Assembly: GCA_029863645.1 (NCBI GenBank) | Contig: JAOTVA010000008.1 | Span: 1-64,000 of the forward strand | Length of the DNA stretch: 64,000 nucleotides | Origin: Gemmatimonadota bacterium | Lineage (GTDB): Bacteria; Gemmatimonadota; Gemmatimonadetes; Longimicrobiales; Gaopeijiaceae | Reading direction: 5' to 3' | Shown: positions 3,982-7,203 of the stretch, piece by piece | Numbering within the stretch: the stretch's first letter is position 1 | Layout: every line of letters starts with the position of its first letter | Program-made: the position numbers and the translations under genes | Notes under the pieces: model-generated | What the model saw: only the letters and a program-made list of their open reading frames with translations | What the model was told of the DNA's origin: nothing | Database searches by the model: none

Positions 3982-4260
3982 CTAGGAGCCCAACTGAGCG
4001 TACCACGAGCCGTCCGATTGGTCGTGATAGAGCGTGATCACGCGGCCGTCGTCGAGAATGACGGTCCTGTACTCCCTGGAGATCGACTCGCGCCACCATT
4101 CGTCATCGATGCGCCAGCGCTCGCGCACGACCTCGACCCGCCGTGCCGTCTTTCCCGGGAGGCGCACGTATGTCGGCTCTCCGTGCTCGTCAGTGCGCAC
4201 GGTAACGGCCTTGGGTTGACCGAGCGGCCGGAGACGAGGCCGGTGGCTTTGATCGCTCAC
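3982..4260 (-). CDS. DUF6504-like protein, ImuB-associated
   Basis: 'PKAVTVRTDEHGEPTYVRLPGKTARRVEVVRERWRIDDEWW...REYRTVILDDGRVITLYHD'; GTG start at 4260 overlaps the imuB stop (GTGA). Confidence 0.65.
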   Translation of the reverse strand: MSDQSHRPRLRPLGQPKAVTVRTDEHGEPTYVRLPGKTARRVEVVRERWRIDDEWWRESISREYRTVILDDGRVITLYHDQSDGSWYAQLGS

Positions 4261-5522
4261 GGATCGAAACTCAGGAGTGCATGGCGGCGCTCGGGGATCC
4301 TGGACCAAGGGTCGATTTCGACCACCCTGTAGAGCGGCGAATGCCCCAAGCGGAGTTTGAGCTCCTTCACGGCATCACGCAGCGAGGGGGGGATCTCGCC
4401 TTGGACGAGCTCGCGGCCCGATGCGGCTCGGCCGCTACAGTCCTTGCGGTCGAAGAGGCCTGTCTGCGCATCAGGTGGACCGAAATGGGTGAGCTCGAGC
4501 AGGAGGGTTTCCACGGCTTTCGGCGGTGGAGCGATCGCCATCTTTGCACGGAGGGGCGCTGCGATGCGCTCGCGCTGAGACGTGGGCTCACGAAGCACCG
4601 TCTCGACGAACCAGGACCCGCCTCCCTCCAGGTGTGCGCCCATACGTACGCCCGTCACGCTGCGCCCACGGCGTGCGGGGCGAGAGAGGGCTCGCTCGAC
4701 CAGCCGGTCCAGGGCTCCATGGAGCGTCTCGATGAGTCCCACCGGGTTCGAAAATTCTAGGGACGCACGAATCGGCCGGGGACGGTGCCAGGGGCGCACG
4801 GGGTCGACGCGGCGGCCGAGTGACCACGCGAGCGCACTTCGGCCCTCCTTTCCGAACTGTGCGACGAGCGAGGGCTCAGGAAAGCCGCGGAGTTCTCCGA
4901 GCGTTTGGATGCCGAGGCGCTCCAAGCGTTGGACGACAAGATGGTCGACCGGGAGCACGCTCACCGGGCAGTGGCCGAGGAACGCGACGAGCTTTTCTTC
5001 GGCGACGATGATGGGTTCGCCCACGCGGGCTGCCGTCGCCGCGACCCAGGCGCCGAACTTCCCAGGGGCCATACCGGCTCGGGTCGCTGCGACGAGAGGA
5101 GGAGGGAAGATCTTGAACAGTGACCGCAACGCTCGGTCCACCTGTTGCGGAGGGGAACCGAAGAGCCGGCCCAGACCATCCATCCCCAGAAAGACACGCC
5201 CACGCCCCGCCGGCTCCAGGACGGGGGTGAGTTCGCCGAGGGCTTCGAGCATCGTGTCCACCGCCGCGTCGTAGTGCGCCGGATCGGGTTCGAGAAGCGT
5301 GAGCGACGTGCAGAGCGAGACGGCCTGGGAGACGAGCTGTCCCGGGCGCACGCCTGCTTCGTGCGCGCGCTCCGATACTTGCCAAATCGTGCGGCGCGTG
5401 CTTTCGCCCGGGGAGAGGAGGGCGACCGACGTGCTGTCGAGCTCAGGGGAACGGACGAGCTCCAGACGAAGCTCGAAGGTGGGGAGCCAGAGGCAGAGCG
5501 CCTGCCGGCTCCCCGTCGTCAT
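4257..5522 (-). CDS. imuB: DNA polymerase Y-family protein ImuB
   Basis: 'RQALCLWLPTFELRLELV...LEPAGRGRVFLGMDGLGRLFGSP...RLERLGIQTLGELRGFPEPSLVAQFGKEGRSALAWSLGRRVDPVRPW'; start set at ATG 5522, downstream of the track ORF start. Confidence 0.8.
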   Translation of the reverse strand: MTTGSRQALCLWLPTFELRLELVRSPELDSTSVALLSPGESTRRTIWQVSERAHEAGVRPGQLVSQAVSLCTSLTLLEPDPAHYDAAVDTMLEALGELTPVLEPAGRGRVFLGMDGLGRLFGSPPQQVDRALRSLFKIFPPPLVAATRAGMAPGKFGAWVAATAARVGEPIIVAEEKLVAFLGHCPVSVLPVDHLVVQRLERLGIQTLGELRGFPEPSLVAQFGKEGRSALAWSLGRRVDPVRPWHRPRPIRASLEFSNPVGLIETLHGALDRLVERALSRPARRGRSVTGVRMGAHLEGGGSWFVETVLREPTSQRERIAAPLRAKMAIAPPPKAVETLLLELTHFGPPDAQTGLFDRKDCSGRAASGRELVQGEIPPSLRDAVKELKLRLGHSPLYRVVEIDPWSRIPERRHALLSFDP

Positions 5523-5939
5523 GCGGGGGGTGGCGGGGAGGAAGGCGGTGGACGATCCGGGCCCGGAGGCCCAATGGGGGGTGCGTGTGGAGCCGTCTTG
5601 AAGTGCTTCATGGCTTTGGGCCCACCCACGACCTTGGTGGGTGGGAACACTTTGCGCGCTCGAGACGGCCTTGCCCATAGCCCATTGGGACGGGGTGAAT
5701 GTTGGAGACGAAGAGTCCCCGGCTTCCGAAAACACACCCCACATCCGTGTCCGCCCACCGTGGGTTTCGAAAACCGGGGACCACACCGAATAAAAACCGA
5801 AATCGGATACCGAAGATAAGCCGAATATCCAAGGCGTGCAAGCAGGGGAATTCGTCACTGTTCGAGGGCGCCACTTTGGCTCAGTTGAGCCATTGAACCA
5901 CATTGTCGGAGACCGAACAGGCCACTCTTACAAAGGGCG

Positions 5940-6057: not shown

Positions 6058-7203
6058 TCAGTTCCCTGCGACGGGTCTCGCCCCGAAGGAGTTCGTCATC
6101 AATTCGTCGTTCCAGCCACCGGTGACGTGGATGAACGCCTTGGCATCGTAGAGGAAGGCCTTGATGAGGTTGTGGTTGAGGTATGCATAGGTGCCTTCCT
6201 GTCGGAATGTGTAGACGGCGGCCGCTGTCCCCCCCGCCACGACGTCCCATGTTTCCAGGCCCTCATCCGGCCGGTTGTTGAACTTCCCGTATGGCCAGAC
6301 CCAGTCACCGTGTCCACCGATCAAGTGCGGGTACGATGGGTTGTTCGCTTGCGAATGGAGCATGAGAACCGTCTCGCCCACCTCGGCCTCCAGGCGTGTA
6401 TCCGCAGTGAGCGCACCATAGGAGCCGTTGAAGGCAATGTGCGTAGGGGTAAGGCCACGCATGACCTGCAGCATATCCCCCATCTGAAGCACGAAGTTGC
6501 CGTATCGCTTGGACGTGCGGCCGTCCGGATTCATCGGCACGTAGTAGTCCTGCTCGCCGAAGTAGAAGGCTCGGTCGTAGCGCACCGGGTCCCCTGATCC
6601 GTCCCGCAAGCCTTCGCGAGGGAGCACGAGGATCGCTCCGTTGCCACCAGTTACGACGTGATAGGGCACCATCTCGCCGCCGGGAGCGCAGTGATACACG
6701 AAGAAGCCCGCTTTCACAGCTCGCCAGCGCAGGCCGACCTCCTGACCTGGAGCGACGAGGGTCAGTTCGCCACCCCCGAGTGCGCCCGTGGCCGCGTGGA
6801 AGTCCACGTTGTGCTGCAGCTGGTTCTGGGCCGCGCCGAAGCGGATCGTGTCCGTAGTGCCGTTGACCAGCGTGAGATCAACCCAGTCCCACTGGAACAC
6901 GACGGGCACCGGGCCAGGGACGTGATTGTTGAAGGCCATCTGCCAAACGAAGACGCCTGGAGCGATCTCGACCTCGCGCTCCACGATCTCCATGCGAATC
7001 CTCACGACGCGCGGGGGCCCGCTAGCCAGCTGCTCGTGTGACGGAAGGAAGGGCGGATCGACGAGCTGTTGGTCGACGACCTCGGCGTCTTCCATCGCGA
7101 AGTTCACAATGGCCTCGTCGGGTGGAATCGCCCAGTCGTCCGGGGAGTCGAGGCAGGCAGTTAAGGACGCAGAGAAGAGCAGGAGGGCCGCGGAATATCT
7201 CAT
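6058..7203 (-). CDS. nirK: Copper-containing nitrite reductase NirK, predicted lipoprotein
   Basis: HNVDFHAATGALGGG, FVYHCAPGGEMVPYHVV, PHLIGGHGDWVW, TFRQEGTYAYLNHNLIKAF, GGWNDELM; signal peptide with lipobox LTAC; start at internal Met 7203. Confidence 0.9.
   Translation of the reverse strand: MRYSAALLLFSASLTACLDSPDDWAIPPDEAIVNFAMEDAEVVDQQLVDPPFLPSHEQLASGPPRVVRIRMEIVEREVEIAPGVFVWQMAFNNHVPGPVPVVFQWDWVDLTLVNGTTDTIRFGAAQNQLQHNVDFHAATGALGGGELTLVAPGQEVGLRWRAVKAGFFVYHCAPGGEMVPYHVVTGGNGAILVLPREGLRDGSGDPVRYDRAFYFGEQDYYVPMNPDGRTSKRYGNFVLQMGDMLQVMRGLTPTHIAFNGSYGALTADTRLEAEVGETVLMLHSQANNPSYPHLIGGHGDWVWPYGKFNNRPDEGLETWDVVAGGTAAAVYTFRQEGTYAYLNHNLIKAFLYDAKAFIHVTGGWNDELMTNSFGARPVAGN

Follow-up and report, generated by a model that had tools for sequence, protein, structure and literature searches.

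The copper-containing nitrite reductase (NirK) encoded in the window, the 64,000-nucleotide stretch of Gemmatimonadota DNA analysed here, lacks the axial Met150 of the His2-Cys-Met type-1 site and holds a glycine in its place (residue numbers such as Met150 and Met62 follow the Alcaligenes faecalis enzyme). The textbook view of NirK is that the electron-entry copper requires the full His2-Cys-Met set. On each criterion we tested, the fourth type-1 ligand excepted, the window protein is a NirK. We lean towards a working, lipid-anchored two-domain class I enzyme in which Met150 changed to Gly once and the axial place is filled by Met62. A lineage found in two phyla has fixed the very substitution that chemists made to open the type-1 site, and it offers a natural experiment in how a cupredoxin replaces or forgoes its axial ligand.

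A nitrite reductase with glycine at the axial type-1 position

The nirK open reading frame occupies window positions 6058-7203 on the minus strand, with a coding part (6061-7203) of 381 amino acids. Its product scores 378 bits against the TIGR02376 profile for copper-containing nitrite reductase, whose cut-off is 296.3. The AF2 model (mean pLDDT 91.2) superposes almost completely on solved NirKs of the PDB, 1zdq among them (TM (target) 0.93-0.97, rmsd 1.3-3.1); model and superposition together place the two-domain cupredoxin fold in this Gly150-type enzyme.

At its N-terminus the protein carries a predicted lipoprotein signal peptide (7153-7203, minus strand). The lipobox LTAC, already claimed in a first-pass annotation of this DNA, is found in the translation, with Cys17 at 7155-7153, and suggests that the protein would be anchored to the membrane via a lipid. 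Most members of the clade described below have a lipobox-like motif ending in Cys; it is absent from one of them, L038. Compared with the A. faecalis enzyme, some nine extra residues lie ahead of the HNVDFH motif (6811-6860, minus strand, within GTTDTIRFGAAQNQ), an insert that is variable in length and sequence inside the clade.

The segment HVVTGGNGAILVLPREGL holds G187 where the axial Met is expected, encoded by GGC (6645-6643, minus strand). HMMER alignments to PDB chains put this residue opposite the Met in 7p2f, a wild-type NirK, and opposite the Gly in the structures of the A. faecalis Met150Gly mutant (1zdq and 2b08); the alignment of the clade gives the same placement. Translation and pairing with the 7p2f Met therefore bear out the first-pass observation that the axial position reads Gly; its remark that engineered Met-to-Gly variants had been studied before is likewise correct (PDB 1zdq).

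The remaining type-1 ligands are all kept. His95 corresponds to H131 of HNVDFH (6811-6813), Cys136 to C172 of the YHC motif, and His145 to H182 of GGEMVPYH (6658-6660), all on the minus strand, as are the features that follow. The type-2 ligands His100, His135 and His306 are equally complete, as H136, H171 and H344, the last in NHNLIKAF (6172-6174). His171 and Cys172 (6688-6693) combine a type-2 and a type-1 ligand in the electron-transfer bridge. The stretch from Asp134 to His136 (6796-6804) begins with AspCAT, Asp98, and that from His293 to Ile295 (6319-6327) with HisCAT, His255; the catalytic trio Asp98, His255 and Ile257 is thus preserved as D134, H293 and I295. The type-2 residues and type-1 His and Cys residues that had been claimed present were all found in the translation and in the alignments, where they are invariant: the ligands of both coppers, AspCAT, HisCAT and Ile257 are intact in every complete sequence of the clade. 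Judged by these residues, the window protein probably has nitrite reductase activity.

One Gly150 clade in two phyla

Relatives were sought by homology searches and in a set of one genome per species covering 84,980 species. Eighteen distinct proteins have Gly at position 150, the window's included. Their hosts are mostly Gemmatimonadota MAGs, with five Pseudomonadota MAGs or their class (L037, L038, L039, L041 and L057); no cultured strain is among the named records bearing the clade in that one-genome-per-species set. Position 150 is Gly in 18/18 members, against Met in 25/25 aligned class I relatives. The codon varies between GGC, GGA and GGG while the residue stays fixed, as expected under purifying selection.

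These data bear on whether Gly187 might be a sequencing or assembly error, or the gene a decaying one without a type-1 site. The source assembly is indeed fragmented, at 86% completeness. Yet independent MAGs yield 18 distinct proteins with the same Gly, encoded by varying synonymous codons, which takes it beyond chance or error; in addition, there are no internal stops and the catalytic residues are all kept. Sequencing error is thereby ruled out, and decay is left with next to no probability. The first-pass annotation had considered that the closest homologues might retain Met and expose an error; the Gly proteins recovered here dispose of that reading and support a type-1 site that naturally has no Met at position 150.

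The NirK phylogeny that the same annotation had proposed as a check was computed by maximum likelihood from 62 sequences: 16 Gly150 rows, 24 class I Met150 rows and 22 distant NirKs. The 16 Gly150 rows form one side of a branch with support 100/100, that is, a single clade, and its stem is long (0.95 changes per column). They group with the 24 Met150 rows of class I, and this whole set is separated from the 22 distant NirKs, again at 100/100. Met150 is kept in L007, from a genome (G057) of the same bacterial family, and in L058, which is 57% identical; L087, at 58% identity, also has Met at this position. The simplest reading of the tree would be that Met150 was lost once and that Gly was then kept. 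Since the clade occurs in two phyla, we infer that its nirK was transferred horizontally at some point. A plasmid collection gave 193 matching records, every one under 60% identity, and so contains no member of the clade.

Some observations concern the relatives themselves. Two canonical class I NirKs with Met150 (L007 and L054), nearly identical to each other, are encoded on separate contigs of G057. The same family also has a divergent NirK-like protein (L027, 1501-2100, minus strand) with an axial Gln in HTAMGQYGAV, resembling the Gln type-1 site of the Thermus scotoductus enzyme, TsNirK. A Cys-to-His loop longer by one residue was considered as a feature of the Gly clade and discarded: the form CAPGGxM is also usual in Met150 relatives.

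Read along its strand, the window's nirK has a YjbR-family gene before it and a gene for a Y-family polymerase-like protein after it. The product of the latter, directly downstream of nirK (4257-5903, minus strand), matches PF00817 with 49 bits. No conserved gene neighbourhood was found across the Gly-clade loci compared, nirK alone being common to them, and FNR/NnrR-like boxes sought upstream of nirK gave nothing consistent.

The window's NirK is the only NirK match in its source genome, and a search of that 86% complete genome for nosZ gave nothing above the family cut-off. Another contig of the genome, C61, outside the window, encodes a heme-copper subunit I (L083, 1207-2961, minus strand) that falls far below the curated CtaD/CoxA cut-off; an SCO-like gene comes after it and a CuA-like domain (L084) lies just upstream. 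The HSSQQIN of L083 aligns to HPEVYVV of the oxidase in L082, which puts a Gln at the position of the cross-linked Tyr. Such a Gln has been described as the mark of eNOR, a type of nitric oxide reductase (PMC8756737). Because L083 shows this eNOR-like residue, a route from nitrite through NO to N2O is plausible in the window's genome.

Candidates for the axial ligand

Three Met residues of the window protein are invariant in the clade: Met89, Met248 and Met369. The last two belong to domain 2 and are near-invariant in Met150 enzymes too; Met89 alone (6937-6939, minus strand) lies in the type-1 domain. It is identified as Met62 because a query with Leu at Met89 has PDB 3h4f, whose title reads 'Met62Leu variant', as its best match, and a full one.

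Position 62 is Met in 17/17 sequences of the clade, versus Met in 11, Leu in 12 and Phe in 2 of 25 Met150 relatives (Fisher p = 1.2e-4, with the sequences treated as independent and the phylogeny ignored). Counted on the tree, by parsimony and scaled to the two subtrees, there are 0 changes in the clade versus 5 in the Met150 relatives, which is not significant (P about 0.16). Both neighbours are clade-specific: position 61 (Gln88, 6940-6942, minus strand) is Gln in 17/17 members versus Ala in 24/25 Met150 relatives, and position 63 is Ala in 17/17 versus Thr in 24/25.

In A. faecalis M150G, Wijma et al. (J Mol Biol 2006) reportedly observed that an external ligand displaces Met62, which then binds the emptied place at the copper. 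Clade invariance, clade-specific neighbours and this reported binding make Met62 the leading candidate axial ligand, one that would bond to the copper. The residue also occurs in ordinary Met150 enzymes, as the 11 relatives above attest, and Gly150 arose only once, so that no independent co-occurrence with Met62 is available. As the reported binding in M150G came upon displacement by an external ligand, the occupancy of the copper by Met62 at rest is uncertain.

In the enzyme we favour, His131, Cys172 and His182 would bind the type-1 copper, with Met89 (= Met62) in the axial position, as is said to happen in the engineered A. faecalis M150G. The usual Cys172-His171 bridge would then carry electrons to the type-2 site, which is unchanged and where nitrite would be reduced to NO.

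The site could instead be open. Gly187 would then leave a cavity, with the copper three-coordinate or bound to water or a small exogenous ligand, and Met62 would stay at rest or shift only on ligand entry; we regard this arrangement as a serious rival, though a less likely one. At an open site, small molecules would govern potential and turnover, as they do in the engineered M150G enzyme. That enzyme is reported to be activated by external ligands, a behaviour that favours an open site. Furthermore, the substitution is the same as in the protein crystallised with methylsulfanyl methane bound (1zdq), and the residue fixed in the clade is Gly, which gives a cavity, and not Leu, Gln or Phe. On the other hand, the conserved Met62 and the clade-specific residues flanking it suggest that the ligand is supplied by the protein. 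Natural cupredoxins without an axial Met also normally have this space taken by Leu, Phe or Gln, which speaks against an open site.

By analogy with M150G, the clade as a whole might be ligand-gated, a doubtful proposition in our estimate: a small molecule in the Gly150 pocket would move Met62 on or off the copper, shifting potential and turnover. If so, the enzyme would sense a metabolite in the manner of the engineered mutant.

An oxygen ligand, provided by Gln88 (position 61), Asn188 (position 151) or a backbone carbonyl, would give a stellacyanin-like or azurin-like site; we think this improbable. Gln88 is found in 17/17 members of the clade versus 0/25 Met150 relatives, Asn188 is invariant in the clade and variable elsewhere, and the type-1 copper of TsNirK is Gln-coordinated (PMC6400189). 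The Gln of TsNirK, however, occupies the axial position itself, and Asn151 is also common in Met150 enzymes. Moreover, Gln88 and Met89 are adjacent in the predicted strand E84-91, and their side chains are therefore expected on opposite faces.

The Met of GGEMVPYH (Met178, = Met141; 6670-6672, minus strand), which the first-pass annotation had put forward as a substitute, does lie within the type-1 ligand loop and is Met in 15/18 members of the clade. But L002 has Arg at this position and both L039 and L041 have Val, and in canonical NirKs this Met commonly coexists with Met150, so it is not a general substitute; the alignment led us to reject it, and a role as axial ligand is very unlikely.

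Met62, capping a natural Met150Gly site permanently or switchably in a working NirK, is most likely on the strength of the sequences compared. The clade bears on whether the swinging Met62 of the engineered mutant operates in nature. It further points to a lineage of environmental nirK genes which annotation based on ligands would misjudge.

Comparison with known nitrite reductases

The class I (green/blue) two-domain NirKs of A. faecalis, Sinorhizobium meliloti (7p2f) and Achromobacter cycloclastes are about 50-54% identical to the window protein. They have in common with it the fold, the type-2 site, AspCAT and HisCAT, the Cys-His bridge and three of the four type-1 ligands. The window protein differs from them in its axial Gly instead of Met, the insert of about nine residues before HNVDFH, the pair Gln61/Ala63 and the lipoprotein signal.

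In the engineered A. faecalis Met150Gly enzyme (1zdq, 1zds and 2b08), the substitution is identical to that of the window protein and Met62 is present; the title of 1zdq is 'Crystal Structure of Met150Gly AfNiR with Methylsulfanyl Methane Bound'. The local sequences, HVVSGGNGAIM in the engineered enzyme and HVVTGGNGAIL in the window, are near-identical. The former is lab-made in an otherwise wild-type protein, whereas the window type is natural, fixed in its lineage and accompanied by further changes beside Met62.

Our search of the open-access literature, with most subscription journals outside its scope, found no natural Gly-type NirK; the only natural exception to the axial Met that it returned is TsNirK, with Gln. 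This is a three-domain protein with a type-1 copper coordinated by Gln130 and a Ser as AspCAT (PMC6400189). It resembles the window protein in being a natural NirK whose core type-1 copper has no axial Met. None of its other particularities, be it the axial Gln, the third cupredoxin domain or the Ser in place of AspCAT, occurs in the window protein, which has Gly, two domains and Asp134. The two also part at the axial residue itself: Gln coordinates the copper of TsNirK, while the side chain of Gly is unable to do so.
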